Assembly: GCA_032622095.1 (NCBI GenBank)
Contig: CP136066.1
Span: forward strand, 118,317,319-118,381,318
DNA: 64,000 nucleotides
Direction: 5' to 3'
Source: Siphonodentalium dalli
Taxonomy: Eukaryota > Mollusca > Scaphopoda > Gadilida > Siphonodentaliidae
Both the position numbers and the translations under genes were made by a program. Under the pieces are notes generated by a model that had not been told where the DNA came from, did not search any database, and worked only from the letters and a program-made list of their open reading frames with translations. Every line of letters begins with the position of its first letter. Within the stretch, counting starts at the first letter, position 1. This document shows positions 6,749 through 63,587 of the stretch, piece by piece.

Positions 6749-6769
6749 TTACATAGACTGGTCTTTACC

Positions 6770-18120: not shown

Positions 18121-18128
18121 AAGTGTAC

Positions 18129-18923
18129 ACTCTTATAACTAATGTGTAGAAACGATTACACATCAAATGTTTAAACCGGTTAATACACATAACAATGTGT
18201 AGTTTTACATACAAATACATTGACCAAGTGCCGTTCTACACATAATGTGCAAATTTTGTTACACACCATTGTGTAAGAACGTAGAGCATGCGCATTGCGG
18301 TGCCTTCAGTTTCACAGTCTGCTACGTGACGGCCATATTGTTTGAGCATATATTTTGGAATACAATCTACAGCGATCGTAGATAAGGAAGGTAAGTTCAG
18401 AATTCCAATTTGTGGGTTTAGTATTAATAGTATATGAGGATTTATTTGTTAAAACTTTCATGGCGATTACTGCCCTTAGACTCTTGTTATGATTGTTGTA
18501 ATAATACTAATATTATGCAATCACGCCTCGACCCTGGTTTGTTCAATCAAAACAAAAACTCACAGTACAGAACAAAATACTACATACCACTATGCGCCAT
18601 GAAAGTTTTAACATATAAATCTGCATATATCTTTAATACTATACCCACAGGTCGGACTACTGAACTTGCATTTCTTGTCTACGAACTGTGTGTGTAAGAA
18701 CATACACAAAATGTGTAAGGGATATGTGTTGAATTTATACACACAGTTGTGTATAAAGGTGTAAAAATTTACCCATTTATGTGTAAAAATTGTTACACAA
18801 TTTGTGTACGAATATGAAACTACACATATACTACACAAATATGATTAAGATCAAAATTGAATAATGATTGTGTAGCAGGGCTACACATTTTGTGTAGAAA
18901 ACCTACACATTAGTCATTAGAGT
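18129..18923. mobile_element. Inverted-repeat element with GTAC duplication
   Basis: The ends ACTCTTATAACTAATGTGTAG and the inverse of ACTCTAATGACTAATGTGTAG form imperfect inverted repeats. GTAC lies on both sides (18,125-18,128 and 18,924-18,927). The interior is rich in TACACA/TGTGTA motifs and shows no transposase. Confidence 0.65.
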
Positions 18924-42639: not shown

Positions 42640-43760
42640 AGCCAGGGAGTTACTGTATGATCATAGGTGATGTGAATAGGTATACAAGGAGTTACTGTAT
42701 GGTCATGAATGATGTGAATAGGTATACAAGGAGTGACTATATGGTTATGAGTGGAGTGTCCATGGTGAGATGCATTGGAATATAAGGAGTGGCTGTATGG
42801 GCATGTGTGAGGTGAATCGGTATACATGTAGTGACTGTACGGTGTATTGTATTGTGTGTGGCCGATGTGACCGTATGGGCATTGCTGTGGTGTATAGATA
42901 TAACGCGAGTAGCTACATGGTCATCCGTGTGTTGTTTATGTATATATGGAGTGATTGTAAGGTCGTGGTGGGATGTATATGTGTACCGTGTGTGGCTGTA
43001 TTGTGACATGTGGGTGTATATGTATATTTGTGCTGTCTGTATGATCATGGATGGAGTGCGTATATAAATAGGGAGTGATTTTATGGTTATGGGTAATACG
43101 TATAGGTGCACATGGTATGCCTGTACGGTCAAGATTGAAGTTATATGCATACCTGGAATAAGTTGGATGGTCATTGACGAGCGTGTGGCTATATAGGGAG
43201 TGCCCTTTTGGTAACGGGTGGGTCGTATATTTATATATGTTGTGGATGTATTATCATCGGTGGTGTATAGGGTGTAGATGAATGATCATGGATGGCGTGT
43301 ATGAGTATACAGTGAGTTGCTGAATTGTCATGTGTGAGGTGTATATGTAAGTATGAAACTTATGAGTGGTCGTTTGTGCGGGTATTTGTATATTTGGAAG
43401 GGCTCACCATTGGTGAGGTGTATATGTATATCTGGATTGACTCTATGGTCATGGGTATGGCGAATAGATATACATGTAGTGGCTGTTTGGTCCATGTTGA
43501 GGTGAATAGGTATACAATGAGTGACTGTATTATCGTGAATGTAATGAATATGTATACATAGAGTGACTATATGGTCAGGTGTAGGAGTATACCTGGTGTT
43601 CATGCATTGTGACTCATGGCTGTATCGTCATTTGTGGCATGTACCGGTATAACCAAATATGGCTGTATGGTCAGGTGTACGTGTATAGAGTGGGTGACTA
43701 TATTGCCATTTGTGTGGTGTTTATGTACATATGAGGTCATGGGTGGGTTGTACATGTGTA
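42640..43760 (+). repeat. Minisatellite, GTATGGTCATG.GTG unit, left half
   Basis: Degenerate 40-60-bp units such as GGAGTGACTGTATGGTCATG and AGGTGAATAGGTATACA repeat about twenty times. Confidence 0.75.
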
Positions 43761-43879
43761 ATTTGGGTGGCTATCGCTTTCCACAATGACTCAAGGATAT
43801 GTTAATCAATAGAGAGGTCATGTCAAAGATTTCTCCACCTTGATAGTGTTTATGTATATGGGGGAACTTTAAACGTGAA

Positions 43880-44830
43880 AAGCGATAGCCACCCATTACC
43901 ACACAGTCATTCCATATATACATACACACCACAGACATAACAATATAGTGACCAACTGTATAAACGTACACCTGACCCATGATCATGGATGGCCATACAG
44001 CTATGAGTCACAATGCAGGCACACCGGGTATAATCCTAAACATGACCCATAACCATAGTCACTCCTTGTATACCCATTCACCTCACCATTGGCCATACGG
44101 TCATCACATGTATACATATTCTCCACACACACACGGTCAAATAAACATTCAATATATACGTCAACACCACAACAATGACCATAGAGTCACCCTGGGTATA
44201 CATATCCACCTCACCAATGGTCATATAGCCACTCGCTTCATACATATACCCTCACCCATGGCACCTGGTATACTCCTTCATCTGACCTATGGCAATATAG
44301 TCACCCCGTGTGTACTTATTCAAAACATTCATACATGATCATGGTCAATCATTGTATATATATTCACCTCACCCTTGGCCATGTCACTCCCTGTATCCCT
44401 ATTTGTCACACCATAGCAGGATAGCCACTCAAGATATACTAATACTCCCCAGCCATGTCAGTATATTCACTCCATGTATGCATATGCACATCATCCATGG
44501 CCATATAGCCGCTCGCTATATACACATACCCCTCGCCCATGACCATATAGCAACACATGTGTATACCCGTATAACCTACACATGACCATACCGCCACGAG
44601 TTACCAAGCAGGAACACCGGGTATACTCATACACCTGACACATGACCATTTAGTCACTCCCTGTATGGCTATTCATTACATTTATGATCATACAGTCACT
44701 CATTGTATACATACATGTACTCATCTCACCATTGACCATGCAATAACTCCCTGTATAGTGTATACCTATTCACCTCACCATGATCATATAGTAACTCCCT
44801 GGCTACCATCTTGGCATCCACCCTGTATCC
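43880..44830 (-). repeat. Minisatellite, right half, opposite orientation
   Basis: The same units as at 42,640-43,760 on the other strand (CATGACCATATAGTCACTCC, TATACCCATTCACCTCACC). The unit order differs from the left half, so the two arrays evolved separately after the inversion. Confidence 0.75.
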
Positions 44831-46184
44831 AGTTGATATGTTTATCATAATGGACCAGAATAGCCACATATTATGGTTCATCTCAGTTCCGTTTCAAAGT
44901 TCTGCCCATTTCCTTTCAATAATATGGCAAGAATCACAAAAGAGGTTCTCCGCAAAATTCCATACTGCAACTTTAAAATGAATTTGTCATGCCCCATGCG
45001 GAACTGGGACAAACAGAATAGAACGTAGTTGTCAGTTAATTAACTAACACGTATAATAACCAAGTGGGTCACAATTTACTACCTTGTCAGATAACGCAGA
45101 GAAAAATGTTCGGGATATATGTAAAAAATAAACTTTTTACAAATTTGGTTGCCATTTTGGAAGCCATCTTGAGCAATTTGGTCTATAAACACCGTAGTGT
45201 GACACATTTAAGATAGACCAAAACAATAAATACCATTGATACCAATGATAGTTGCATTTTACTTAAAACAATTGTCCAACCCTGAAAAGTGAATTTTTGC
45301 CGATATTTATGTCAAGATTGTGAGAGAAAAATCCAATATTTCTGGTGATGTCAGTGGTGACAATAGAAACAATGATCCATGGTGCATCAGACATGTTAGT
45401 ATGCAATGTATATAATACAGATTAGCCAATTATATATATCAACCACAACTTGTAAGCCATTGCAGGACACCCTGGGGCAATATTTACCATTTTTCATATT
45501 TTCGGCGGCCATTTTGGAAATTTTCTACACCAATTTCATTCCCATTGAAGTAAAACATCCGTCCAATAAAATAAAGCACATGGTTGTTGACATTCTATTA
45601 ACATCCTGTGTGGTTTATCGATAAAATGACTATCAAAATCGTCTTGCAAAAAAAATCGAAAATTTCACCCCTCTTTTTCAAATCCTCTTTCTGTATCTAT
45701 TACGGAACCCTCGTCAATGGCAAATGTCTTAAAATGACCGCTATAATATCACGCTTGATGACTGTCTCAAAAACATTGCCATTTACTAATGATTAATGTG
45801 AAGAAAAATGGAAGATATGGTGAAATATTAATTAAATTTCCTATTTTCGTGCATATGACGTCATTTTTCGGCGGCCATTTTGATTTTTTTTCGAAATTAT
45901 TTGCCGTCATTTTGAAGAAGGACATCATACCAACAAAATGGCATACATTTTGTCTGTGTCTTTTGCTAACAACCGATCTATTACAACGATTAAATACAGC
46001 TGGTCGGAATTAGAGGAAATGGCGGCCATCTTGGATTCAAATGGCTCTAGCACCTAGTAGGGCCACCTTTAGTTTTCGGTGAAATCCGGATTCTTTATCT
46101 GGATACCATAGGGAACAATAAAAATAAGGTTATTTGTAATCATCGGGGGGGGGGTGCATGTGGACCTTATTGGCTCCCCGACTA

Positions 46185-47305: not shown

Positions 47306-47308
47306 TAA

Positions 47309-47896
47309 TTAACATCCTGTGTGGTTTATCGATAAAATGACTATCAAAATCGTCTTGCAAAAAAAATCGAAAATTTCACGCCTCTTTTTCAAATCCTCTT
47401 TCTGTATCTATTACGGAACCCTCGTCAATGGCAAATGTCTTAAAATGACCGCTATAATATCACGCTTGATGACTGTCTCAAAAACATTGCCATTTACTAA
47501 TGATTAATGTGAAGAAAAATGGAAGATATGGTGAAATATTAATTAAATTTCCTATTTTCGTGCATATGACGTCATTTTTCGGCGGCCATTTTGATTTTTT
47601 TTCGAAATTATTTGCCGTCATTTTGAAGAAGGACATCATACCAACAAAATGGCATACATTTTGTCTGTGTCTTTTGCTAACAACCGATCTATTACAACGA
47701 TTAAATACAGCTGGTCGGAATTAGAGGAAATGGCGGCCATCTTGGATTCAAATGGCTCTAGCACCTAGTAGGGCCACCTTTAGTTTTCGGTGAAATCCGG
47801 ATTCTTTATCTGGATACCATAGGGAACAATAAAAATAAGGTTATTTGTAATCATCGGGGGGGGGGGGGTGCATGTGGACCTTATTGGCTCCCCGAC
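47309..47896 (+). repeat. Partial second copy of the long element's right end
   Basis: Matches 45,597-46,184 in direct orientation almost base for base, including the terminal GGCTCCCCGACTA, and is followed by the same LINE sequence. The G run is longer here. Confidence 0.85.
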
Positions 47897-48350
47897 TACA
47901 CGTTATCCTGAAGTGTACAGAATTAAATGAACTCAGATCGACCTATTTGAAACCATATTTCTATAGAAGACCGAATGCACACAAACTCTCAGAACTCTTT
48001 AAGACTAGAAATAGAAAGACAATTAGGAATCTGTCAACTTTCATAAGGAAAGTCCATGATATTTTCGGCAAGTCCACTTGAGACTATAACATTGATATTC
48101 CATGAACCCACCCCGATTTCTAAAAGACCTATATACATCACTGTCTATAAAGACCCCTCACACAGTACATGAAATCATCACCCGAATTCCGAGTGAATTA
48201 CCAAATATCTAATCATGCACTCATGTATTCCTCGTGTGAAATTTATTGTTATTATATCTCATAATTGAATATCTTGATGTCATAAATATTTTGTCTGTAA
48301 TATCCACATATCGATTAACAGAGTAAACTGAATCTGAATCTGAATCTAAA
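47897..48350 (+). pseudogene. LINE C-terminal tail and 3' UTR
   Basis: 47,897-48,081 encodes HVILKCTELNEL, YLKPYFYRRPNAHKLSELF and TIRNLSTFIRKV, then TGA. This is the region after the C-terminal cysteine motif of an invertebrate LINE. The same family lies on the minus strand at 63,588-64,000 (YLKSYYCTRPNAHKLNAVF). A ~270-bp 3' UTR ends in a short TGAATC repeat (48,329-48,350). The 5' part is replaced by the long inverted-repeat element's end. Confidence 0.7.
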
Positions 48351-49524: not shown

Positions 49525-51445
49525 TATCCTTTGGCGCGGGCTACAGGTCGTACCTTTGGTCTTATCTTTATGAATTTTGCATGAATGTTGACATTGACAT
49601 GTAGATGGGAACGAGTCATTTTGGGGTCATTCGGCCAAAAAACATGGCCGCTGGTGGCCATCTTGGATTTCAAAATTCAATCCATTGGCGCGGGCTACAG
49701 GTCGTACTGTTCGTTTGATCATCATGAAATTTGTCATGGATGTTAATATTGACATGTAGATGGGAACGAGACATTTTGGGGTCGTTCGGCCAAAAACATG
49801 GCTGTCAGCAGCCATCTTGGATTTTACTCTTTGCATGACTAAATCCTTTGGCGCGGGCTACAGGTCGTACCTTTGGTCTGATCTTTATGAAATTTGTCAT
49901 GAATGTTGACATTGACATGTAGATGGGAACGAGTCATTTTGGGGTCATTCGGCCAAAAAACATGGCCGCTGGTGGCCATTTTGGATTTCAAAATTCAATC
50001 CATTGGCGCGGGCTACAGGTCGTACTGTTCGTCTGATCATTATGAAATTTGTCATGGATGTTAATATTGACATGTAGATGGGAACGAGTCATTTTGGGGT
50101 CGTTCGGCCAAAAAACATGGCCGCTGGCAGCCATCTTGGATTTTACTCTTTGCATGACTAAATCCTTTGGCGCAGGCTACAGGTCGTAGTTTTGATCGGA
50201 ACTTCATGAAATTTGTCATGGATGTTAACAATGACATGTAGATGGGAACGAGTGATTTTGGGGTTGTTCGGCCAAAAAACATGGCCGCCAGCAGCCATCT
50301 TGGATTTTACTCTTTGCATGACTAAATCCTTTGGCGCGGGCTACAGGTCCTACCTATGGTCTGATCTTTATGAATTTTGTCATGAATGTTGACATTGCCA
50401 TGTATATGGGAACGAGTCATTTTGGGGTCATTCGGCCAAAAAACATGGCCGCTGGTGGCCATTTTGGATTTCAAAATTCAATCCATTGGCGCGGGCTACA
50501 GGTCGTGCTGTTCGTCTGATCATCATGAAATTTGTCATGGATGTTAATATTGACATGTAGATGGGAACGAGTGATTTTGGGGTCGTTCAGCCAAAAGACA
50601 TGGCCGCCAGCAGCCATCTTGGATTTTACTCTTTGCATGACTAAATTCTTTGGCGCGGGCTACAGGTCGTAGCTTTGGTCAGAACTTCATGAAATTTGTC
50701 ATGGATGTTAACAATGACATGTAGATGGGAATGAGTGATTTTGGGGTCGTTCGGCCAAAAAACATGGCCGCCAGCAGCTATCTTGGATTTTACTCTTTGC
50801 ATGACTAAATCCTTTGGCCTGACCTTTGGTCTGACCTTTATGAAATTTGTCATGAATATTGATATTGACATGTATATGGGAACGAGTCATTTTGGGGTCA
50901 TACGGCCAAAAAAACATGGCCGCTGGCAGCCATCTTGGATTTCAAAATTCAGTCCATTGGCACGGGCTACAGGTCGTACTGTTTGTCTGATCATCATGAT
51001 ATTTATCATGGATGTTAATATTAACATGTAGATGGGAACGAGTCATTTTGGGTTCGTTTGGCTAAAAAACATGTCCGCCAGCAGCCATATTGGATTTTAC
51101 TCTTTGCATGAATAAATCCTTTGGTGCGGGCTACAGGTCGTAGCTTTGGTCGGAACTTCATGAAATTTGTCATGTATGTTAACAATGACATGTAGATGGG
51201 AAACGAGTCATTTTGGGGTCGTTCAGCCAAAAAACATGGCCACCAGCAGCCATCTTGGATTTTACTCTTTGCATGACTAAATCCATTGGCACAGGCTACA
51301 GGTCATACCTTTGATCAGATCATTATGAGATTTGTAAAGGTTGTAGATGGGAACAAGTCATTTTGGGGTAATTCGGAAAAAAACATGGCTGCCGGTGGAC
51401 ATTTTAGAATTTACTCTTTGCATCAATAAATCCTTTGGCACACCA
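49525..51445 (+). repeat. Satellite array, ~155-bp units, about 12 copies
   Basis: Units start near ATCCTTTGGCGCGGGCTACA or ATCCATTGGCGCGGGCTACA at about 49,525, 49,680, 49,851, 50,002, 50,163, 50,325, 50,483, 50,645, 50,810, 50,953, 51,115, 51,281 and 51,427. Each contains GACATGTAGATGGGAACGAG and CGGCCAAAAAACATGGCCGC. Different unit types alternate, so a two- or three-unit higher-order repeat is likely. The open frames are a by-product of the period. Confidence 0.85.
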
Positions 51446-53689: not shown

Positions 53690-54117
53690 ACTGGCAGACG
53701 GATTTCGACGAAATTTGATACCTAGCGGTACTTTTGTCCGGGGAGTGTTTTGGACGGGTCAAATCGTGACCCCGACCTTGACCTTCAAAATGGTAAATTC
53801 AAGGTCAAATCGCGCGTTTCGAACGGATTTCGACGAAATTTGATACCTAGGGGTACTTTTTTCGACGGGTCAAATCATGACCCCGACCTGACCTTGACCT
53901 TGAAAATGAATTCAAGGTCAAATTGCGCCTTTAGAATGGATTTCGACAAAATTAGATACATAGGGTTACTTTTGTCCAGGGAGTGTTTTGGACTGGTCAA
54001 ATCGTGACCCCGACCTGACCTTGACCTTCAAAATGGTCCATTCAAGGTCAAATCGCGCCTTTCGACGGATGAGAGCAGAGGGGAAACAGCCCAGACGAAG
54101 TCGGGTCACCCTGCTAG
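53690..54117 (+). mobile_element. Helitron 3' region with ~130-bp repeats
   Basis: Three degenerate units contain CGGATTTCGACGAAATTTGA, TACTTTTGTCCGGGGAGTG and GTGACCCCGACCTTGACCTT. The element ends CCCAGACGAAGTCGGG, a short hairpin, then TCACCCTGCTAG (CTAG at 54,114-54,117) and T. That is a Helitron 3' terminus. The 5' end is not identified. An older inverted relative lies at 8955-9200. Confidence 0.65.
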
Positions 54118-54440: not shown

Positions 54441-54450
54441 TGATGATAAC

Positions 54451-54466
54451 GCCCCCAGTTGGGGGC
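54451..54466. repeat. Terminal mini-hairpin GCCCCCA/TGGGGGC
   Basis: A 16-bp near-palindrome ten bases inside the left end; mirror at 63,436-63,451. It could be part of the integrase recognition site. Confidence 0.6.
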
Positions 54467-54478
54467 AGTCTAGACAGG

Positions 54479-54526
54479 TTGACCTACATTCTCTGCAGTA
54501 CATGGAGTTTGACCTATATTCTCCGC
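54479..54526 (+). repeat. Subterminal direct repeats, 30-bp spacing
   Basis: TTGACCTACATTCTCTGC (54,479-54,496) and TTGACCTATATTCTCCGC (54,509-54,526) differ at two bases. Mirror copies are at 63,406-63,423 and 63,376-63,393. Their place near the tip suggests protein binding, for example by the integrase (inference). Confidence 0.6.
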
Positions 54527-54563
54527 CCACGCGTCGGTCTATTTGTATACCGGTTGGGCATGT

Positions 54564-54769
54564 CCAAAAAATTTCGAAAACTTCAAAAATTTCAAAAACT
54601 TCAAAAACATCAAATATTTCAAAAAACTTCAAAAACTTCAAAAATTTCGAAAACTTCAAAATGTTAAAAAAATTCAAAAAATTCAAAAATTTCAAAAATT
54701 TCAAAAATTTCAAAAAAATTCAAAAACTTCACAAATTTCACAAATTTCAAAAAACTTAAAAAAAAATTC
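54564..54769. repeat. A-tract array, ~9-10-bp period, left
   Basis: About twenty units of AAAAACTTC or AAAAATTTC follow one another. A-tracts repeated near the helical pitch are known to bend DNA. The 9-bp period keeps several frames open on both strands (KFKNF- or FLKFLKF-type peptides), which are unlikely to be proteins. It separates the element tip from the first gene. Confidence 0.8.
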
Positions 54770-54830
54770 CACATCACGTGATGGCTATTGTTATAAGGGT
54801 TGTGAATGTACTAAGTTATAATATTTTATT

Positions 54831-55061
54831 ATGGAGAGTGATGGTTCTTCAGAAAAGTGGTATTGGCTCGGCCAGAAAGTACCTAGATCCGAGATTGTAT
54901 ATTTCTGTCAAATTATTATTATTTATACGATAGTAATCACATCTATCGTTAATTTGTCAATAGGTCACGAGGCCTCGACATTATGGACGAGTCTATTGAG
55001 TTCGTCTGTTGGGTACCTACTTCCGGCCCCTACTATAAATAGAAGAAGCGTCGTGGTATAA
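54831..55061 (+). CDS. Small membrane protein, 76 aa (left copy)
   Basis: The N-terminus is polar with a WYWLGQKVPRSE stretch. A hydrophobic segment of ~24 residues (about 22-45, IVYFCQIIIIYTIVITSIVN) is followed by a second moderately hydrophobic stretch (LWTSLLSSSVGYLLP, about 51-65). One or two membrane spans are expected. I recall similar small proteins (PRSEIV..., GYLLP) in invertebrate F54H12.2-type loci, but their function is unknown to me. It is the first gene of the cluster; its stop codon overlaps the TATA box of the TBP gene. A role in virion membrane or cell exit would be a guess. Confidence 0.7.
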   Translation: MESDGSSEKWYWLGQKVPRSEIVYFCQIIIIYTIVITSIVNLSIGHEASTLWTSLLSSSVGYLLPAPTINRRSVVV

Positions 55062-55065
55062 AAGG
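55034..55065 (+). promoter_or_regulatory. TATA boxes before the TBP-like gene
   Basis: TATAAATAG at 55,034-55,042 and TATAAAAGG at 55,057-55,065. The second matches the classical strong Pol II TATA box and lies 36 bp before the TBP ATG, so the 5' leader would be only a few bases. Confidence 0.6.
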
Positions 55066-55092
55066 TAATGTGTATATCATAATGTTGTCACT

Positions 55093-55605
55093 ATGGTACG
55101 CGTAACTAATGTAGTATGTTCCAGTCAGTTAGGATGTCCTGTGGATGTGATATATTTGGCTAATGCACTACGTAACGTCGTATGTAAGAGGGGTTTCTTA
55201 ATTTGGAGGAATCGTTCTATAGGCGGATCATGCTGGCTCTATAAGACGGGTAAACTTATGTGTGCGGGAGCCTCTAGTCACGCGGAAGATGGAATTCGAA
55301 GACTGCGAAAGTATGCCAGAATAATTCAAAAGATCGGATACCCAGTATGCCTGTCCAGAGTTCGTATAATTACCATGTCAGCCGTTCATAAATGCAGCCC
55401 ATTATCATTAAGGTTATTGGTCGAATATCTCGGTGGTAACTATTATCCAGAAATTTTTCCTGCTGTGACATTCTACACTGAGGGTATCCACTTCGCTTGT
55501 CACCTGAGTGGATCTATTTTAATAACGGGTATAAAGAATCAACGACAGATCGTACGTGAGGTGCTACCGAAAATTCTAGAACTCGAAATCTGCAGTAATG
55601 GATGA
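55093..55605 (+). CDS. TATA-box-binding protein-like factor, 170 aa (left copy)
   Basis: The length equals the TBP core, and both direct repeats of the saddle fold can be followed. Repeat 1: NVVCSSQLGCPVDVIYLA, TGKLMCAGA (residues 52-60), KYARIIQKIGYPV (73-85). Repeat 2: YYPEIFPAVTFY (117-128), LSGSILITG (138-146). These line up with host TBP blocks of the SGK-(M/V)V-(C/L)TG, KYARVVQKLGFP and YEPELFPG type. Of the four DNA-kinking phenylalanines, the ELFPG one is kept (F122), one is Tyr (Y50), one is displaced (near F35) and one is His (H137). TBP recruits RNA polymerases to promoters; this divergent copy probably recognises the element's own promoters. The 3' end overlaps the integrase start by 8 bp. 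No N-terminal extension as in host TBP. Confidence 0.85.
   Translation: MVRVTNVVCSSQLGCPVDVIYLANALRNVVCKRGFLIWRNRSIGGSCWLYKTGKLMCAGASSHAEDGIRRLRKYARIIQKIGYPVCLSRVRIITMSAVHKCSPLSLRLLVEYLGGNYYPEIFPAVTFYTEGIHFACHLSGSILITGIKNQRQIVREVLPKILELEICSNG
55530..55537 (+). promoter_or_regulatory. TATA-like motif before the integrase gene
   Basis: TATAAAGA inside the TBP coding region, 68 bp before the integrase ATG. Weak evidence, by position only. Confidence 0.35.
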
Positions 55606-56671
55606 ATATCTACATTCTCTGTATTATGACCCGAGTAAACCAGGTAGTTTCGGAGGAGTTGAAAAACTATATCAGGCTGTTAAAGCTGAAGGATCACACG
55701 TTATCAGCAGGAAGAAAATTCGAGATTGGTTCAGTTCTCAAGAGACCTATACGCTAATTAAACCATCTAGACACAAATTTCCTAGAAGTAGAGTCGTGGT
55801 TGAAGGCTTAGACTCGTTGTGGGACTGTGATTTGGCAGACTTGACTGCTTCAGGAAGTCGTTATAAATACATTTTGGTTATAATCGATGTATTTTCAAGA
55901 TACGCTTGGTGTCGTGCCTTGATAAAGAAAGATGCGAAACACGTAAGTGAAGCTTTCGAAGATGTGTTTCTTCACGAAACACGTAGACCATCCATACTGA
56001 GAACGGACAAGGGGACGGACTTTAATTCAAGACCCGTTCAGAGGTTATTCAAGCGGGAAGGAATCAAATACCTGTCGACCGAAAATGAAACTAAAGCCAA
56101 TTACGCGGAGAGATTAATAAAGACCCTGAAGACGAGGTTATATAGATATCTCGTTCACAATAGTATTCAAGAATATTCCAGTGTATTGCAGGATATTGTG
56201 GAAAGCTACAATAACACGGTACACCGTTCCACCGGTTACACACCGACGTCAGTTAATAAAGGCAACGAATCTGAGGTGCGCTATCAACAGAAACTACTTC
56301 TTCGAGAGGGTAGTGTCAAATTAAAAAAGTACGAGTTCAAGGTCGGTGACAGAGTGAGGATATCACACATCAAAGGAGTTTATGACAAAGAATTTTATAA
56401 GAAGTGGACGGGTGAAATTTTCACGGTGGTACTGCGATATAGAAGAGGAGGTGTGAACGTTTACAAGTTGAAAGATTGGGACGAGGAAGAAGTCACAGGC
56501 TCATTTTACGCGCAAGAATTACAAGCAATTAAAGTGGACCCTGATGCAGTTTACAGAATCGAGAAAATACTAAAAAGGAGCGGGAACACAGTTTTAGTTC
56601 GTTGGCTGAATTGGGGTTCTAAATACGACTCTTGGATATCGAGAACTGATCTAGTGAAATACGGAAAGTGA
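55598..56671 (+). CDS. Polinton/Maverick-type integrase with chromodomain, 357 aa (left copy)
   Basis: The N-terminal ~65 residues have the block YYDPSKPGSFGGVEKLY and SRKKIRDWFSSQETYTL common to Polinton integrases. The catalytic rve core follows, with D78 (WDCDLADL), D137 (LRTDKGTDF) and E171 (NYAERLIKTLK), a D-D-x33-E arrangement. An SH3-like part (KVGDRVRISH, GEIFTV) and a C-terminal chromodomain (about 318-352, YRIEKILKRSGNTVLVRWLN) come next. It would cut and join the element's TG...CA ends into host DNA with a 6-bp stagger; the chromodomain may guide it to modified histones. It starts inside the end of the TBP gene (ATGGATGA) and ends TGATG with the next gene. Length is normal and all catalytic residues are present. 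Confidence 0.95.
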   Translation: MDEYLHSLYYDPSKPGSFGGVEKLYQAVKAEGSHVISRKKIRDWFSSQETYTLIKPSRHKFPRSRVVVEGLDSLWDCDLADLTASGSRYKYILVIIDVFSRYAWCRALIKKDAKHVSEAFEDVFLHETRRPSILRTDKGTDFNSRPVQRLFKREGIKYLSTENETKANYAERLIKTLKTRLYRYLVHNSIQEYSSVLQDIVESYNNTVHRSTGYTPTSVNKGNESEVRYQQKLLLREGSVKLKKYEFKVGDRVRISHIKGVYDKEFYKKWTGEIFTVVLRYRRGGVNVYKLKDWDEEEVTGSFYAQELQAIKVDPDAVYRIEKILKRSGNTVLVRWLNWGSKYDSWISRTDLVKYGK

Positions 56672-57078
56672 TGAGATTATACTTATCTAGCCGTCATAGT
56701 GACGATTCTTTTCCCGGAAATGAAGCGGGTGATTTCACAACGCCACTACCCGCTGATTGGTTACTAGATTCACGATGGACGTGTTGCCTGGAACAATTTT
56801 CTATAAAACCCGAGGACCCGCATGACGTTATGTACGTATGTTGTGACGTATGCGAACATTCATTCGTTTATAATAAAATGGCACCCGTACTAAGAGTTAT
56901 TTATAGAGGCAGTAAATCAACTTATAAGTACGGTAAGAGTCATGACGTGCGCGTTACTAGGACTGACCCGCAGTTTATAAGGGTATACGTCTTGGATGGT
57001 AATTTGGCGCCTATAAAAATTACTACTTCAGAGTACACGTTGAACTTTAGCCATAATGGGGACTCCGTACTATTATGA
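56671..57078 (+). CDS. Candidate minor capsid (penton-like) protein, 135 aa (left copy)
   Basis: The start used is the ATG within TGATG at the integrase stop; a GTG one codon earlier is less likely. The sequence runs MRLYLSSRHSDDSFPGN, EAGDFTTPLPADWLL, WTCCLEQFSI, YVCCDVCEHSFV, PVLRVIYRG and ends with strand-like VRVTRTDPQFIRVYVLDG and YTLNFSHNG. This pattern of alternating strands resembles small proteins I recall beside F54H12.2-type genes, thought to be single jelly-roll vertex proteins. I have no direct proof. It overlaps the next gene by 23 bp. The four close cysteines (CC, CCDVC) are conspicuous. Otherwise it could be another virion protein. Confidence 0.6.
   Translation: MRLYLSSRHSDDSFPGNEAGDFTTPLPADWLLDSRWTCCLEQFSIKPEDPHDVMYVCCDVCEHSFVYNKMAPVLRVIYRGSKSTYKYGKSHDVRVTRTDPQFIRVYVLDGNLAPIKITTSEYTLNFSHNGDSVLL
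57012..57019 (+). promoter_or_regulatory. TATA-like motif before the basic protein gene
   Basis: TATAAAAA, 44 bp before the ATG at 57,056 and inside the upstream gene. Confidence 0.4.
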
Positions 57079-57277
57079 CTTTGATCTTAAAAAATATGTA
57101 CCCTATGATGACTCGAAGTACCTACCCGAGACTGAAGCGAAACCTGAAAAACTTATAAGGAAAGCCGCAGCTAAGAAGATAAAAGTTAAAAAGATAAAAG
57201 CAGGAAAAGCGAAGAAGACAAACATTGGAAAAGTTAAAACGGAACCCGCAAACGACATATTCTCCTCACCAAAATGA
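57056..57277 (+). CDS. Lysine-rich core-like protein, 73 aa (left copy)
   Basis: An acidic/aromatic start (MGTPYYYDFDLKKYVPYDD) is followed by a lysine-rich tail (KKIKVKKIKAGKAKKTNIGK). It lies between the two capsid candidates, overlapping the first by 23 bp and the second by 4 bp (ATGA). Small basic proteins at such places in adenovirus-like genomes condense DNA in the particle; that role is an inference. I recognise no family. Confidence 0.65.
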   Translation: MGTPYYYDFDLKKYVPYDDSKYLPETEAKPEKLIRKAAAKKIKVKKIKAGKAKKTNIGKVKTEPANDIFSSPK

Positions 57278-58518
57278 GTAACTTACCTACATTTTCGAAG
57301 GCTACTGAAAGGCCGGAAGTTATGCAAAGGGAATGGATGGAATACAACCCCGTTAACCAGATAGTAGATGGTGCTCCTATAGAGTTCAACGTACCATCGA
57401 CGTCTCAGAAATATATTGATTTTCGAAACAGTTTTCTAAACTTGACTTTGAAAATTGTGAAAGGTGATGGAAGCGCTTTGAAAAAAACTTCAAAAGTAGG
57501 AATTATTAACGCACCAGTCCACTCATTGTTCTCGTCAGTCGACATCGAGCTTCAGCAAACTACGGTATCAACATTAGGACCGTTTTATCCTTACAAGTCT
57601 TATCTGGACGTGCTATTGAGCGCGGATGAAAATGTTATCAACAATGGTCTACAACAGCGGATGTGGTACAAAGACCCGCCCAACGAATTCGACGATACAA
57701 CACCCATCGGAGGCAATCTAGGTTTTTATGAAAGAGTGAAGCTCACGGCGGAAAGCAAAGAAATAAAAGTTTCCGGACCGATACTACATGATCTGTGCCA
57801 ACAGGATAGATATATTATCAACGGTGTGCCCGTCCGCATTAAATTATGGCCCGTGAAGAATGCTTTCGCACTAATGAATGGCGAAGAGAATGAAAATTAC
57901 AAAGTTAAAATAACCGGTGCTAGTATCAGAGTTTGCTTTTGCAAAATGATTCCTAGTGTTACCAAAGAAATCGAAGAACGGTTGAAAAAATCTGATGCCA
58001 TTTATCCCTACCTGAGATCCGCAGTGAAGGCTTTCTCTATCGCCAAAGGGTCTTTCAATTTCACAGCCACTGACTTGTTTCAAGGAGATATACCTCGGCG
58101 TATCATAGCGGTTATGATTGATGCTGCGGGATTTAATGGAAATTACAAGAAAAATCCACTGAACTTTCAACATTTCAATTGCAGTAGCGTGGCTTTCACA
58201 GTGAATGGACAGTCATTACCTAGCCGACCACTGAGCATGAATTACGGGAAGGAAGATTATCTCGAAGCTTACAGTAACTTGGTACGAGCGTATCCCGGAA
58301 CGTCCATATCACGAGAGGATTTTGACGGTGGTTATGCTATTTACTGTATTGACCCGACTGGATCTATCGAAGACGGACAACCGGTGGTCAAGGGATTGAC
58401 GCAAATGGATATTAAGTTCACAGAAGCATTGTCGCAGACTATAGTGTTATTGGTATACGGGACTTTTCCATCACACTTCAGCATAAACGAGGCTCGCAAT
58501 GTGTCATCTCCCAACTAA
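57274..58518 (+). CDS. Candidate major capsid protein, F54H12.2-like, 414 aa (left copy)
   Basis: The protein has the family's early block HSLFSSVDIELQQTTVS and YPYKSYLDVLLS (about residues 89-119), then QQRMWYKD and NLGFYERVKL, the typical layout of invertebrate proteins similar to C. elegans F54H12.2. In worms that gene lies next to a Polinton-type integrase (F54H12.3), and the family is taken to be the double-jelly-roll capsid protein of Polinton-like elements. Later blocks with many strands (PVRIKLWPVKNAFALM, GDIPRRIIAVMIDAAGFNGN, TEALSQTIVLLVYGTFPS) fit that. It is about 60-80 residues shorter than some relatives as I recall them. The start overlaps the upstream stop (ATGA). Two AATAAA signals follow the stop. 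Codon 135 is CCG (Pro) here and ACG (Thr) in the right copy. Confidence 0.8.
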   Translation: MSNLPTFSKATERPEVMQREWMEYNPVNQIVDGAPIEFNVPSTSQKYIDFRNSFLNLTLKIVKGDGSALKKTSKVGIINAPVHSLFSSVDIELQQTTVSTLGPFYPYKSYLDVLLSADENVINNGLQQRMWYKDPPNEFDDTTPIGGNLGFYERVKLTAESKEIKVSGPILHDLCQQDRYIINGVPVRIKLWPVKNAFALMNGEENENYKVKITGASIRVCFCKMIPSVTKEIEERLKKSDAIYPYLRSAVKAFSIAKGSFNFTATDLFQGDIPRRIIAVMIDAAGFNGNYKKNPLNFQHFNCSSVAFTVNGQSLPSRPLSMNYGKEDYLEAYSNLVRAYPGTSISREDFDGGYAIYCIDPTGSIEDGQPVVKGLTQMDIKFTEALSQTIVLLVYGTFPSHFSINEARNVSSPN

Positions 58519-58546
58519 TATTTTTGTGTATATTATTAGTGTTGAA

Positions 58547-58567
58547 AATAAAAATTTTGAAAATAAA
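58547..58567 (+). terminator. Poly(A) signals after the left capsid gene
   Basis: AATAAA at 58,547-58,552 and 58,562-58,567, 29 and 44 bp after the stop codon; the first such signals after the whole six-gene run. Confidence 0.65.
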
Positions 58568-58656
58568 ACATAAGTTTCGTCTCGTTATTTCAGGGACCCC
58601 CTCCCCACCGAAGGTATAGAAAAACAACAACAATGAATTATAATACAAATATAAGT

Positions 58657-58662
58657 TTTATT
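58657..58662 (-). terminator. Mirror poly(A) signal in the left arm
   Basis: Mirror of the signal at 59,240-59,245. It belongs to the antisense fragment of the 66-aa gene and probably has no gene to serve here. Confidence 0.5.
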
Positions 58663-58707
58663 TTGACATAGTTATCCATTTCTTATTCAATAATCTTTCC
58701 CCCGGTG

Positions 58708-59194
58708 AATATCCTATAATATACAAATCTTTATAAGGATGAGTGCCAGGATCTCTAGAAATGCAGCGTTCTTGTCACTACTCGCATCCTGTTCTAGGAA
58801 GCAGTTAATATCTCTGTTGAAGACGGCTACTACGGACCAGATAAACGCATTATCGGAAATATGTTTGAATGTGTTGCAGGGTGTTTTGACTGTTACGAAT
58901 ATACAAACATTAGTGCCTTACAAGAAGTTTTATAGACTCATGGCTGACGAGAAATATAGCGTGCTTAGGAAGAGACAAAATTTGCTTAAAAATTTGAAAG
59001 CAGTGCCTCTGTTACTCAAGGACGTACCGATTGAACATTTATAATGTCGACATATTCAAAAAATGTGGTCATACCTTATGACAAATATGAACGTTTACTG
59101 AAAAATACCATCAAGAAAACGGCTGTAAAGACTCAATCACCTACAACGTCCTCAGCAATTCGGAAACCATCGATGATGAAGAAGATAGATAAAC
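58708..59194. other. Unique loop of the palindrome (487 bp)
   Basis: The only part of the element present once. It contains the 101-aa gene and the first 50 codons of the 66-aa gene. TATAATATAC at 58,715-58,724 lies shortly before the first ATG. Confidence 0.9.
58739..59044 (+). CDS. Small helical protein of Polinton-type loci, 101 aa
   Basis: Basic N-terminus (MSARISRNAAFLSLLASCSR), then KQLISLLKTATTDQINALSE and ICLNVLQGVLTV, and a basic C-terminal half (YKKFYRLMADEKYSVLRKRQ) ending in a hydrophobic stretch (AVPLLLKDVP). The ALSE...N-VL-G pattern followed by a K/R-rich segment matches a small protein I recall near F54H12.2-type capsid and integrase genes in many invertebrates; its role is unknown, possibly virion-associated. 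Its stop overlaps the next start (TAATG). It occurs once, since it sits in the loop. Confidence 0.7.
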   Translation: MSARISRNAAFLSLLASCSRKQLISLLKTATTDQINALSEICLNVLQGVLTVTNIQTLVPYKKFYRLMADEKYSVLRKRQNLLKNLKAVPLLLKDVPIEHL

Positions 59195-59244
59195 CACCGG
59201 GGGAAAGATTATTGAATAAGAAATGGATAACTATGTCAAAATAA
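59044..59244 (+). CDS. Basic protein, 66 aa, crossing the loop/arm border
   Basis: MSTYSKNVVIPYDKYERLLK followed by a Lys/Ser/Thr-rich region and a basic end (ERLLNKKWITMSK). It starts in the TAATG overlap with the 101-aa gene. The first 50 codons lie in the loop and the rest in the right arm, so the same end sequence is present antisense in the left arm at 58,658-58,707. The opening resembles short proteins carrying a V-P-Y-D-K/R-Y-x-x-L motif, but I cannot name a function. The stop codon sits inside an AATAAA signal. Confidence 0.65.
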   Translation: MSTYSKNVVIPYDKYERLLKNTIKKTAVKTQSPTTSSAIRKPSMMKKIDKPPGERLLNKKWITMSK

Positions 59245-59245
59245 A
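59240..59245 (+). terminator. Poly(A) signal overlapping the 66-aa gene's stop
   Basis: AATAAA whose TAA is the stop codon; it faces the signals of the right capsid gene about 90 bp away. Confidence 0.6.
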
Positions 59246-59334
59246 ACTTATATTTGTATTATAATTCATTGTTGTTGTTTTTCTATACCTTCGGTGGGGA
59301 GGGGGTCCCTGAAATAACGAGACGAAACTTATGT

Positions 59335-59355
59335 TTTATTTTCAAAATTTTTATT
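59335..59355 (-). terminator. Poly(A) signals after the right capsid gene
   Basis: Mirror of 58,547-58,567; TTTATT at 59,335-59,340 and 59,350-59,355 on the plus strand. Confidence 0.65.
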
Positions 59356-59383
59356 TTCAACACTAATAATATACACAAAAATA

Positions 59384-60628
59384 TTAGTTGGGAGATGACA
59401 CATTGCGAGCCTCGTTTATGCTGAAGTGTGATGGAAAAGTCCCGTATACCAATAACACTATAGTCTGCGACAATGCTTCTGTGAACTTAATATCCATTTG
59501 CGTCAATCCCTTGACCACCGGTTGTCCGTCTTCGATAGATCCAGTCGGGTCAATACAGTAAATAGCATAACCACCGTCAAAATCCTCTCGTGATATGGAC
59601 GTTCCGGGATACGCTCGTACCAAGTTACTGTAAGCTTCGAGATAATCTTCCTTCCCGTAATTCATGCTCAGTGGTCGGCTAGGTAATGACTGTCCATTCA
59701 CTGTGAAAGCCACGCTACTGCAATTGAAATGTTGAAAGTTCAGTGGATTTTTCTTGTAATTTCCATTAAATCCCGCAGCATCAATCATAACCGCTATGAT
59801 ACGCCGAGGTATATCTCCTTGAAACAAGTCAGTGGCTGTGAAATTGAAAGACCCTTTGGCGATAGAGAAAGCCTTCACTGCGGATCTCAGGTAGGGATAA
59901 ATGGCATCAGATTTTTTCAACCGTTCTTCGATTTCTTTGGTAACACTAGGAATCATTTTGCAAAAGCAAACTCTGATACTAGCACCGGTTATTTTAACTT
60001 TGTAATTTTCATTCTCTTCGCCATTCATTAGTGCGAAAGCATTCTTCACGGGCCATAATTTAATGCGGACGGGCACACCGTTGATAATATATCTATCCTG
60101 TTGGCACAGATCATGTAGTATCGGTCCGGAAACTTTTATTTCTTTGCTTTCCGCCGTGAGCTTCACTCTTTCATAAAAACCTAGATTGCCTCCGATGGGT
60201 GTTGTATCGTCGAATTCGTTGGGCGTGTCTTTGTACCACATCCGCTGTTGTAGACCATTGTTGATAACATTTTCATCCGCGCTCAATAGCACGTCCAGAT
60301 AAGACTTGTAAGGATAAAACGGTCCTAATGTTGATACCGTAGTTTGCTGAAGCTCGATGTCGACTGACGAGAACAATGAGTGGACTGGTGCGTTAATAAT
60401 TCCTACTTTTGAAGTTTTTTTCAAAGCGCTTCCATCACCTTTCACAATTTTCAAAGTCAAGTTTAGAAAACTGTTTCGAAAATCAATATATTTCTGAGAC
60501 GTCGATGGTACGTTGAACTCTATAGGAGCACCATCTACTATCTGGTTAACGGGGTTGTATTCCATCCATTCCCTTTGCATAACTTCCGGCCTTTCAGTAG
60601 CCTTCGAAAATGTAGGTAAGTTACTCAT
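59384..60628 (-). CDS. Candidate major capsid protein, F54H12.2-like (right copy)
   Basis: Mirror of the left copy and identical apart from Thr instead of Pro at residue 135 (YKDTPNEF; base 60,226). In this half the gene converges on the 66-aa gene. An intact frame in both arms means both copies are either still used or very young. Confidence 0.8.
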   Translation of the reverse strand: MSNLPTFSKATERPEVMQREWMEYNPVNQIVDGAPIEFNVPSTSQKYIDFRNSFLNLTLKIVKGDGSALKKTSKVGIINAPVHSLFSSVDIELQQTTVSTLGPFYPYKSYLDVLLSADENVINNGLQQRMWYKDTPNEFDDTTPIGGNLGFYERVKLTAESKEIKVSGPILHDLCQQDRYIINGVPVRIKLWPVKNAFALMNGEENENYKVKITGASIRVCFCKMIPSVTKEIEERLKKSDAIYPYLRSAVKAFSIAKGSFNFTATDLFQGDIPRRIIAVMIDAAGFNGNYKKNPLNFQHFNCSSVAFTVNGQSLPSRPLSMNYGKEDYLEAYSNLVRAYPGTSISREDFDGGYAIYCIDPTGSIEDGQPVVKGLTQMDIKFTEALSQTIVLLVYGTFPSHFSINEARNVSSPN

Positions 60629-60846
60629 TTTGGTGAGGAGAATATGTCGTTTGCGGGTTCCGTTTTAACTTTTCCAATGTTTGTCTTCTTCGCTTTTCCT
60701 GCTTTTATCTTTTTAACTTTTATCTTCTTAGCTGCGGCTTTCCTTATAAGTTTTTCAGGTTTCGCTTCAGTCTCGGGTAGGTACTTCGAGTCATCATAGG
60801 GTACATATTTTTTAAGATCAAAGTCATAATAGTACGGAGTCCCCAT
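60625..60846 (-). CDS. Lysine-rich core-like protein (right copy)
   Basis: Identical to the copy at 57,056-57,277; same 4-bp and 23-bp overlaps with its neighbours. Confidence 0.65.
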   Translation of the reverse strand: MGTPYYYDFDLKKYVPYDDSKYLPETEAKPEKLIRKAAAKKIKVKKIKAGKAKKTNIGKVKTEPANDIFSSPK

Positions 60847-61231
60847 TATGGCTAAAGTTCAACGTGTACTCTGAAGTAGTAATTTTTATAGGCGCCAAAT
60901 TACCATCCAAGACGTATACCCTTATAAACTGCGGGTCAGTCCTAGTAACGCGCACGTCATGACTCTTACCGTACTTATAAGTTGATTTACTGCCTCTATA
61001 AATAACTCTTAGTACGGGTGCCATTTTATTATAAACGAATGAATGTTCGCATACGTCACAACATACGTACATAACGTCATGCGGGTCCTCGGGTTTTATA
61101 GAAAATTGTTCCAGGCAACACGTCCATCGTGAATCTAGTAACCAATCAGCGGGTAGTGGCGTTGTGAAATCACCCGCTTCATTTCCGGGAAAAGAATCGT
61201 CACTATGACGGCTAGATAAGTATAATCTCAT
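60824..61231 (-). CDS. Candidate minor capsid (penton-like) protein (right copy)
   Basis: Identical to 56,671-57,078; begins at the ATG of TGATG at the integrase stop. Confidence 0.6.
   Translation of the reverse strand: MRLYLSSRHSDDSFPGNEAGDFTTPLPADWLLDSRWTCCLEQFSIKPEDPHDVMYVCCDVCEHSFVYNKMAPVLRVIYRGSKSTYKYGKSHDVRVTRTDPQFIRVYVLDGNLAPIKITTSEYTLNFSHNGDSVLL
60883..60890 (-). promoter_or_regulatory. TATA-like motif before the right basic protein gene
   Basis: Mirror of 57,012-57,019. Confidence 0.4.
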
Positions 61232-62304
61232 CACTTTCCGTATTTCACTAGATCAGTTCTCGATATCCAAGAGTCGTATTTAGAACCCCAATTCAGCCAA
61301 CGAACTAAAACTGTGTTCCCGCTCCTTTTTAGTATTTTCTCGATTCTGTAAACTGCATCAGGGTCCACTTTAATTGCTTGTAATTCTTGCGCGTAAAATG
61401 AGCCTGTGACTTCTTCCTCGTCCCAATCTTTCAACTTGTAAACGTTCACACCTCCTCTTCTATATCGCAGTACCACCGTGAAAATTTCACCCGTCCACTT
61501 CTTATAAAATTCTTTGTCATAAACTCCTTTGATGTGTGATATCCTCACTCTGTCACCGACCTTGAACTCGTACTTTTTTAATTTGACACTACCCTCTCGA
61601 AGAAGTAGTTTCTGTTGATAGCGCACCTCAGATTCGTTGCCTTTATTAACTGACGTCGGTGTGTAACCGGTGGAACGGTGTACCGTGTTATTGTAGCTTT
61701 CCACAATATCCTGCAATACACTGGAATATTCTTGAATACTATTGTGAACGAGATATCTATATAACCTCGTCTTCAGGGTCTTTATTAATCTCTCCGCGTA
61801 ATTGGCTTTAGTTTCATTTTCGGTCGACAGGTATTTGATTCCTTCCCGCTTGAATAACCTCTGAACGGGTCTTGAATTAAAGTCCGTCCCCTTGTCCGTT
61901 CTCAGTATGGATGGTCTACGTGTTTCGTGAAGAAACACATCTTCGAAAGCTTCACTTACGTGTTTCGCATCTTTCTTTATCAAGGCACGACACCAAGCGT
62001 ATCTTGAAAATACATCGATTATAACCAAAATGTATTTATAACGACTTCCTGAAGCAGTCAAGTCTGCCAAATCACAGTCCCACAACGAGTCTAAGCCTTC
62101 AACCACGACTCTACTTCTAGGAAATTTGTGTCTAGATGGTTTAATTAGCGTATAGGTCTCTTGAGAACTGAACCAATCTCGAATTTTCTTCCTGCTGATA
62201 ACGTGTGATCCTTCAGCTTTAACAGCCTGATATAGTTTTTCAACTCCTCCGAAACTACCTGGTTTACTCGGGTCATAATACAGAGAATGTAGATATTCAT
62301 CCAT
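61231..62304 (-). CDS. Polinton/Maverick-type integrase with chromodomain (right copy)
   Basis: Protein identical to the left copy, with D78, D137, E171 and the chromodomain intact. Having the integrase in both arms means either half alone could supply it. Confidence 0.95.
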   Translation of the reverse strand: MDEYLHSLYYDPSKPGSFGGVEKLYQAVKAEGSHVISRKKIRDWFSSQETYTLIKPSRHKFPRSRVVVEGLDSLWDCDLADLTASGSRYKYILVIIDVFSRYAWCRALIKKDAKHVSEAFEDVFLHETRRPSILRTDKGTDFNSRPVQRLFKREGIKYLSTENETKANYAERLIKTLKTRLYRYLVHNSIQEYSSVLQDIVESYNNTVHRSTGYTPTSVNKGNESEVRYQQKLLLREGSVKLKKYEFKVGDRVRISHIKGVYDKEFYKKWTGEIFTVVLRYRRGGVNVYKLKDWDEEEVTGSFYAQELQAIKVDPDAVYRIEKILKRSGNTVLVRWLNWGSKYDSWISRTDLVKYGK

Positions 62305-62809
62305 TACTGCAGATTTCGAGTTCTAGAATTTTCGGTAGCACCTCACGTACGATCTGTCGTTGATTCTTTATACCCGTTATTAAAATAGATCCACTCAGGT
62401 GACAAGCGAAGTGGATACCCTCAGTGTAGAATGTCACAGCAGGAAAAATTTCTGGATAATAGTTACCACCGAGATATTCGACCAATAACCTTAATGATAA
62501 TGGGCTGCATTTATGAACGGCTGACATGGTAATTATACGAACTCTGGACAGGCATACTGGGTATCCGATCTTTTGAATTATTCTGGCATACTTTCGCAGT
62601 CTTCGAATTCCATCTTCCGCGTGACTAGAGGCTCCCGCACACATAAGTTTACCCGTCTTATAGAGCCAGCATGATCCGCCTATAGAACGATTCCTCCAAA
62701 TTAAGAAACCCCTCTTACATACGACGTTACGTAGTGCATTAGCCAAATATATCACATCCACAGGACATCCTAACTGACTGGAACATACTACATTAGTTAC
62801 GCGTACCAT
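62297..62809 (-). CDS. TATA-box-binding protein-like factor (right copy)
   Basis: Identical to the copy at 55,093-55,605, with both TBP repeats intact; overlaps the integrase start by 8 bp. Confidence 0.85.
   Translation of the reverse strand: MVRVTNVVCSSQLGCPVDVIYLANALRNVVCKRGFLIWRNRSIGGSCWLYKTGKLMCAGASSHAEDGIRRLRKYARIIQKIGYPVCLSRVRIITMSAVHKCSPLSLRLLVEYLGGNYYPEIFPAVTFYTEGIHFACHLSGSILITGIKNQRQIVREVLPKILELEICSNG
62365..62372 (-). promoter_or_regulatory. TATA-like motif before the right integrase gene
   Basis: Mirror of 55,530-55,537. Confidence 0.35.
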
Positions 62810-62836
62810 AGTGACAACATTATGATATACACATTA

Positions 62837-62868
62837 CCTTTTATACCACGACGCTTCTTCTATTTATA
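62837..62868 (-). promoter_or_regulatory. TATA boxes before the right TBP-like gene
   Basis: Mirror of 55,034-55,065; CCTTTTATA at 62,837-62,845 on the plus strand. Confidence 0.6.
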
Positions 62869-63071
62869 GTAGGGGCCGGAAGTAGGTACCCAACAGACGA
62901 ACTCAATAGACTCGTCCATAATGTCGAGGCCTCGTGACCTATTGACAAATTAACGATAGATGTGATTACTATCGTATAAATAATAATAATTTGACAGAAA
63001 TATACAATCTCGGATCTAGGTACTTTCTGGCCGAGCCAATACCACTTTTCTGAAGAACCATCACTCTCCAT
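62841..63071 (-). CDS. Small membrane protein, 76 aa (right copy)
   Basis: Identical to 54,831-55,061, with the same hydrophobic segment. Confidence 0.7.
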   Translation of the reverse strand: MESDGSSEKWYWLGQKVPRSEIVYFCQIIIIYTIVITSIVNLSIGHEASTLWTSLLSSSVGYLLPAPTINRRSVVV

Positions 63072-63132
63072 AATAAAATATTATAACTTAGTACATTCAC
63101 AACCCTTATAACAATAGCCATCACGTGATGTG

Positions 63133-63338
63133 GAATTTTTTTTTAAGTTTTTTGAAATTTGTGAAATTTGTGAAGTTTTTGAATTTTTTTGAAATTTTTG
63201 AAATTTTTGAAATTTTTGAATTTTTTGAATTTTTTTAACATTTTGAAGTTTTCGAAATTTTTGAAGTTTTTGAAGTTTTTTGAAATATTTGATGTTTTTG
63301 AAGTTTTTGAAATTTTTGAAGTTTTCGAAATTTTTTGG
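63133..63338. repeat. A-tract array, ~9-10-bp period, right
   Basis: Mirror of 54,564-54,769 (GAAGTTTTT/GAAATTTTT units on this strand). Confidence 0.8.
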
Positions 63339-63587
63339 ACATGCCCAACCGGTATACAAATAGACCGACGCGTGGGCGGAGAATATAGGTCAAACTCCAT
63401 GTACTGCAGAGAATGTAGGTCAACCTGTCTAGACTGCCCCCAACTGGGGGCGTTATCATCAAATATATAGGTCAATAATCGTGTACACGTGCGGAGAGAG
63501 TGGGGTTTGAATTAGGTGTGTGTATAGGGAACTAACATCGGGTCTGGCATAAATCATTGGGGTAAGGTGACAATCGTGCACTGTTGA

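Follow-up and report, generated by a model that had tools for sequence, protein, structure and literature searches.

Polintons are characterised by a protein-primed DNA polymerase B (PolB), an rve integrase, a Ulp1 protease, an ATPase and capsid proteins (PMC11071308), and the Mavericks of vertebrates end in (AG)3 or (AGT)2 motifs (PMC8097293). Adintoviruses combine an OTU-PolB, a hexon and an integrase with a C-terminal chromodomain (PMC11071296). We analysed an element related to these systems at positions 54441–63461 of a 64,000-bp stretch (the window) from the genome of the scaphopod mollusc Siphonodentalium dalli (GCA_032622095.1, contig CP136066.1; C6:118317319-118381318). Our analysis makes it very probable that this unit is a young palindrome, non-autonomous and derived from a ~14-kb integrating element of Polinton/adintovirus type. 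Like Polintons and Mavericks, the element has an rve integrase, a double-jelly-roll capsid, PolB pieces, terminal inverted repeats and 6-bp duplications (as excerpted in PMC11071308 and PMC8097293); unlike them, it carries a TATA-binding protein (TBP) together with PC4 and has palindromic derivatives. Its ends read TGATGATA, in contrast to the (AG)3 or (AGT)2 given for vertebrate Mavericks in the available part of PMC8097293. With adintoviruses, as excerpted in PMC11071296, it shares the presence of an rve integrase and capsid genes in animals, its own chromodomain being weakly seen.

The unit forms a near-perfect palindrome, in which a left arm of 4267 bp (54441–58707, + strand; element end TGATGATAAC) and its inverted copy (59195–63461, − strand) surround a unique centre of 487 bp (58708–59194, +). 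The original prediction, which had been made from the sequence before this analysis, was exact as to the bounds, the TG...CA ends and the flanking AATATA duplication; its gene layout overlooked the palindrome, in which all genes outside the centre occur twice, in inverted orientation. The target-site duplication occupies residues 54435–54440 on the left and, identically, 63462–63467 on the right, and a match of this 6-mer on both sides has a probability of ~3e-4 by chance. The arm genes are doubled in mirror image with frames open on both arms; in the right arm the capsid (59384–60628), penton-like (60824–61231), integrase (61231–62304) and TBP (62297–62809) genes are all on the − strand. The sole mismatch among the 4267 arm bases lies at 57676/60226 and exchanges Pro for Thr in the capsid. 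A single difference between arms of 4.3 kb suggests that the window palindrome is recent in origin. The fold-back junction was localised to 58707/58708, where the arm end (...CCCCCGGTG) and the sequence that ordinarily precedes the centre (...TTTCCCGGTG, as read from the ordinary arrangement in locus L020) share the 7-bp microhomology CCCGGTG.

The parent family was identified in the window's own genome (2.23 Gb, 9 contigs), in which all match counts are lower bounds. We found at least 151 matches to the TBP and at least 115 to the integrase, with at least 60 rows at ≥97% identity, partial ones included; 59 of these 60 were used for counting pairs, the fragment C6:86422011 being left out. The centre was present over its whole length at 40 places. 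At 38 of these it lay on the strand opposite a neighbouring integrase of the 59, at ~2.5 or 3.1 kb from start to start (distance limit, 3300 bp), and the remaining two are likewise placed (C9:183088695 in L026, with a 93% identical integrase, and C1:109990935, whose integrase lies 3362 bp away). The ordinary order is therefore the arm followed by the reversed centre, and the window junction 59194/59195 is the normal one. This order also means that the 66-amino acid (aa) and 101-aa open reading frames (ORFs) of the centre converge on the capsid gene.

All nine ordinary copies that we fetched continue past the centre, and seven of the nine right halves (those of L012 and L017 excepted) reach the right terminal repeat 9.4–9.6 kb beyond it. 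Six copies with ends paired by exact duplication (L013–L016, L019 and L027) measure 14.0–14.4 kb, the stretch of L027 starting 13 bases from the end, with a matching duplication. Exact 6-bp duplications were present at six of seven full-length copies; for the seventh (L018), no second end was seen in the sequence retrieved. Ends were assigned by matching a sequence pattern, which left one to three candidates per side; under a stricter version of the pattern, only L019 of 13 yielded ends. Pfam scans of ORFs in the right halves of L013 (6 ORFs) and L019 (7 ORFs) returned PolB pieces (PF03175) over the Pfam cut-off (1.3e-12 and 6.8e-9 in L013, 3.6e-7 in L019), in which terminal-protein and OTU parts were not identified, and PC4 at 6554–7063 (+) of L019 (5.8e-13). 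The window copy has no such PolB piece. A search with the PolB family PF03175 found at least 149 matches here, and 14 control genomes yielded none. The earlier proposal of an integrating, capsid-encoding, Polinton-type element with a TBP is supported, and the further insertions by which that proposal was to be checked were found, with the same TBP-integrase order and with 6-bp duplications at full-length and palindromic copies alike.

Palindromes recur in the window's lineage. Among the 59 integrase copies counted, eight pairs within 16 kb run + then − and none runs − then +; an additional +/− pair at 96% identity (C6:86405842/86420802) falls outside this count. Seven palindromes were inspected, the window included, the eighth pair being C2:120784805/120790770, and they have seven different fold-back points. 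This point is 58707 in the window; three copies (L022, L023 and L024) fold back inside the capsid gene, L020 does so on one side at the first bases of that gene, and for L021 and L025 the point is past the centre or in the 3' region of the capsid. In L020, L021 and L025 the spacer consists of ordinary right-half sequence. Junction microhomology was also observed in L023 (7 bp) and L020 (2 bp), and exact 6-bp duplications bracket four of the six other palindromes, or five of seven with the window. Of 68 PC4 places, 14 in the same lineage were picked by eye as neighbours, and these make up four − then + pairs and three + then − pairs.

Inverted pairs extend to related lineages. The genome contains at least 150 PC4 matches, 68 of them at 81–100% identity and 82 at 43–54%. 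The 82 distant matches include 18 + then − pairs, 14 of which are spaced 4.97–5.18 kb and the rest 3.2–7.2 kb, as well as nine − then + pairs spaced 8.8–9.3 kb. Four of the corresponding stretches contain long inverted repeats cut by the stretch ends, whose arms reach at least 4.0 kb (98–99% identity) in L049 and L050 and at least 4.4 kb (99.96–100%) in L051 and L052. PC4 lies in the arm of L049, which has an A32-like ORF above cut-off in its middle, and in the arm of L051. With 18 and nine inverted pairs in these PC4-bearing lineages, palindromic forms may spread. The TBP-then-integrase order with the same short overlap is also present in distant lineages, for example at C5:224730979/224729913 (64% identity for TBP, 76% for integrase); a further distant lineage has this order at C3:30802840/30803348 (42% and 65%), and in a further TBP lineage (41–42%) a listed PolB match lies within 6 kb at no fewer than seven of the 26 places counted.

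Several results weigh against reading 54441–63461 as a derivative of a Polinton-type element by simple fold-back. The PolB sequence is broken up into several frames, at similar places in L013–L019 and L027 (~1986–4615), which could reflect introns or an inherited defect; because of this division, no examined copy is shown to be autonomous. The Pox_A32 ATPase candidate scored below the cut-off (0.0073 in L019, 0.013 in L013), no protease match was obtained among the seven L019 and six L013 ORFs scanned, and codon-usage scoring was uninformative, in that it did not separate known genes (TBP z 0.3). Among the palindromes, L021 has no matching duplication, its expected right end not having turned up in the sequence retrieved; the flanks of L023 differ and include no matching duplication; and the right-end palindrome L053, 6.8 kb long, lacks one as well. 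The spacer of L022 (5248 bp) and that of L024 (859 bp) had no match in the right half of L019, and not every palindrome can therefore have had a simple history.

The full element begins with a left terminal inverted repeat, after which its first strand carries a small ORF, TBP, integrase, the penton-like and basic ORFs and the double-jelly-roll capsid. Encoded on the opposite strand, towards the capsid, are the 66-aa ORF, the 101-aa ORF, a weak A32-like ATPase, a 168-aa ORF, the PolB pieces and a 562-aa ORF; PC4, again in first-strand orientation, and the right terminal repeat complete the element. We propose that TBP and PC4 would commandeer the basal transcription machinery of the host at the element's TATA promoters, PolB would copy the linear genome from its ends, putatively by protein priming, and the integrase would insert it with a 6-bp duplication. 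During extrachromosomal replication, a growing strand may switch template at a short microhomology and then retrace the left half as far as its end. The resulting molecule would be symmetric, with the same left end on both sides; it would thus keep both ends needed for integration and would be inserted by an integrase probably supplied by any copy, so that the derivative may depend on enzymes provided in trans for its mobilisation. A broader proposition, to which we give about an even chance, is that palindromic genomes are a regular mobile form of this host's Polinton-type viruses, arising by template switch, packaged and reintegrated in the manner of defective interfering genomes and, in some lineages, maintained as stable, evenly built palindromic families, with the full viruses bringing TBP and PC4, one or the other of which recurs across several related lineages. 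The near-identical palindromic copies are a record of the folding back of linear viral genomes that is open to junction comparison.

Adenoviruses likewise produce symmetric genomes with an inverted duplication of the left end; the symmetric form of the present element differs in being integrated in the nuclear genome. A subterminal array of AT-rich 9-bp repeats (AAAAATTTC) spans 54567–54765 (+), with a mirror array at 63138–63335. According to the available parts of adenovirus reviews, incomplete particles favour the left end and AT-rich packaging repeats lie beside the left terminal repeat; the position of our array is similar, which we note as a parallel and not as a test of packaging.

The palindrome could also have formed after integration, by a break in the right half of a 14-kb insert, copying of the left arm via the terminal repeat and closure at a microhomology. 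Such repair would produce the same structure and keep the original duplication, the terminal repeats would supply the required homology, and seven differing fold-back points fit independent repair events. The recurring pair spacing in the PC4 lineages would nevertheless be hard to explain without moving palindromes, and the four −/+ pairs of the family's own PC4 are what replication fold-back from either end would predict. We therefore consider repair after integration unlikely, though the most serious of the alternatives, and favour formation of the palindrome before integration.

The TBP homologue (170 aa, both repeats) is encoded at 55093–55605 (+). It matched PF00352 at 7e-15 (55.1 bits against a Pfam cut-off of 22.9) and aligned with human TBP across both repeats at 2.5e-14 and 30% identity, in agreement with its initial assignment. 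With a profile of the window protein and two database relatives, eukaryotic TBPs scored highest, at 105.7 bits, and chains that we take to be archaeal reached at most 77.6 bits. Two of 18 candidates from a collection of 5.8 billion proteins passed as relatives, both of 168 aa and on contigs of at most 6820 bp, and a genome contig search with P0001 gave no match. Two TATA-box-like sequences (TATAAATA at 55034 and TATAAAAG at 55057; 55034–55064, +) precede the TBP gene as matches to the consensus only; of seven TATAWAWR octamers on both strands of 54441–59194, two lie <60 bp upstream of the TBP start.

The element TBP might be a decoy that squelches host transcription and not an initiator for the element genes. 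In favour of this, the protein differs from cellular TBPs at a conserved site: the Phe of human IFVSG is replaced by His in the window protein as well as in P0001 and P0002. Against this, the human motif SYEPELFP, presumably on the side of TBP that contacts TFIIB, is kept in P0001 and nearly kept in the window protein (YYPEIFP), TATA-like sites lie upstream of the protein's own gene, and the element also carries PC4, a coactivator by its Pfam name. We regard the decoy role as improbable and a function in initiation at the element's own promoters as the better reading. We also considered whether TBP steers integration to TATA sequences, and this was not supported, the 11 duplications (AATATA, ACCAGG, ACCTTG, ATCTTT, CTCACA, TCGCAT, GTTGAC, ACCAGT, GATATT, CATCAC and GCCATC) not being TATA-like as a set.

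Virus-borne TBPs have been described in mirusviruses, where 59% of genomes encode one (PMC10132985), in Megavirus chilensis (PMC11464507) and in Chrysochromulina parva virus (PMC12085832). Our element resembles these large DNA viruses in this trait, by description only and as far as the excerpts of these papers go; their genomes are much larger, and here the TBP resides in an integrating element of 14 kb. The endogenous viral elements of Cymbomonas are likewise integrated and have sporadic TBP genes, yet their capsid genes are of the HK97, mirusvirus-like type and not double-jelly-roll, and the available part of that report identifies neither a DNA polymerase nor a double-jelly-roll capsid gene in them (PMC10675990). 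Neither "TATA" nor "TBP" occurs in the main text of the adintovirus paper (PMC11071296). The original prediction knew of no TBP on a Polinton-like element, and our literature search agreed, finding no report of one in what was mainly open-access literature, with most subscription papers outside the search. In the excerpted literature, the viral TBPs described belonged to large viruses and to mirusvirus-like integrated elements.

Small integrating animal viruses are thought to depend on host RNA polymerase II factors. An integrating virus that brings TBP and PC4 along could itself determine which promoters are used.

An assembly artefact, in the form of a fold-back read or a mis-joined repeat, is highly improbable. 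Inverted repeats that are long and nearly identical are a recognised source of assembly errors, but the flanks outside the unit differ and have no mirror likeness (local score 8 against a shuffle mean of 9), which excludes a fold-back read as the simple cause; moreover, the duplication brackets the unit, the contigs are chromosome-sized, and similar palindromes with other spacers occur elsewhere, most of those inspected bracketed by duplications of their own. Least probable of all is that the 9-kb unit, with its clean bounds and its frames open on both arms, is the native genome of a compact new lineage with very long terminal repeats, an idea refuted for the window's family by full-length copies that run on past the centre, mostly to a terminal repeat, and hold PolB pieces in both right halves scanned, and by the window fold-back point being found in none of the six other palindromes inspected. 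The "compact gene set" of the original prediction, a lineage with no polymerase, thus gives way to ~14-kb copies with PolB pieces, an ATPase candidate and PC4; the window copy is best described as one that lost its right half when its left end was duplicated.

The remaining arm genes were analysed individually. A 76-aa ORF (MESDGSSEKWYW...; 54831–55061, +) has a hydrophobic stretch and no Pfam family. The integrase (55598–56671, +; 357 aa) has an rve core that passed the Pfam cut-off (PF00665, 5.8e-11), a trait of Polintons and Mavericks. Its candidate catalytic residues are D78, D137 and E171, the last of which we chose on what we take to be the family alignment. The predicted DDE integrase with a chromodomain was thus upheld for the core; the C-terminal chromodomain reached 17.2 bits, below its cut-off of 25.1, with weak matches to chromodomains in the PDB (E 0.19–0.51). 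In a comparison with PHROGs, the integrase matched transposase-like entries, and the capsid and the 101-aa ORF had weak matches of unknown function.

The capsid protein (57274–58518, +; 414 aa) adopts a double-jelly-roll fold according to its sequence relatives, an AF2 model and a fold search, which confirmed the earlier capsid candidate. Twelve relatives were identified among 2879 database candidates, the four best at 36–38% identity and partial ones at up to 42%. The AF2 model has a pLDDT of 85.3, and Foldseek matched it to the capsids of PBCV-1, Singapore grouper iridovirus (SGIV), Sputnik and mavirus (best E 2.4e-16); a profile search against PDB sequences had returned nothing credible, and it was the fold search that succeeded. 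One relative at 28% identity, from Mytilus trossulus, is named F54H12.2-like in its database annotation, and by this annotation the element can be likened to the F54H12.2-like relics of invertebrates, which we take to be of Polinton origin; a literature search on F54H12.2 found no paper. Together with the non-LTR reverse transcriptase domains in the window, the Mytilus relative by itself points to a eukaryotic and probably animal host.

The 135-aa ORF (56671–57078, +) had been called penton-like; it remains an unconfirmed penton or minor-capsid candidate, with no homologue, no Pfam match, chance-level PDB matches and a single-sequence structure model of pLDDT 33. The 73-aa basic ORF (57056–57277, +) is present as predicted and has no Pfam family. 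The centre encodes a 101-aa ORF (58739–59044, +), whose stop is overlapped by a complete 66-aa basic ORF (59044–59244, +) that extends into the right arm. We rejected the notion that the gene at 59044 is cut off at the border of centre and arm, as ordinary copies show 59194/59195 to be normal and 58707/58708 to be the fold-back. Frames overlap by 1–23 bases at five borders (TBP/integrase, integrase/penton-like, penton-like/basic, basic/capsid and 101-aa/66-aa), and the overlaps in 54441–59244 may reflect coupled translation or a common transcript. A sigma-70 promoter scan was set aside as unsuited to a eukaryote. The element proteins and end sequence had no match in IMG/VR viral contigs, tblastn against phage records gave nothing for TBP, capsid or integrase, and an Rfam scan of the window had no match.

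Further observations concern neighbouring and related sequences. In L051, of a palindromic lineage with PC4, the arm also holds a BIR-RING ORF of the inhibitor-of-apoptosis type (PF00653, 1.4e-16) at 1253–1984 (−). Very long open frames occur at 5537–10000 of L017 (1488 aa) and at C8:189091157 (16011 aa, near an N stretch in L003); these are perhaps tandem-repeat insertions or gaps. The window contains a second long inverted repeat at 41255–46184, with arms of ~1.57 kb that are 94% identical and mirrored ends TAGTCGGGGAGCC; it has no clear duplication, and its right end and flank recur at 47308–47898. Satellite-like tandem arrays were identified at 49526–51335 (unit ~164 bp), 15641–18129 (277–323 bp) and 53748–53973 (113 bp). 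Reverse transcriptase and endonuclease fragments (RVT_1, Exo_endo_phos_2) of the non-long-terminal-repeat (non-LTR) type are located at 2–1356 and 10817–11356 (−).

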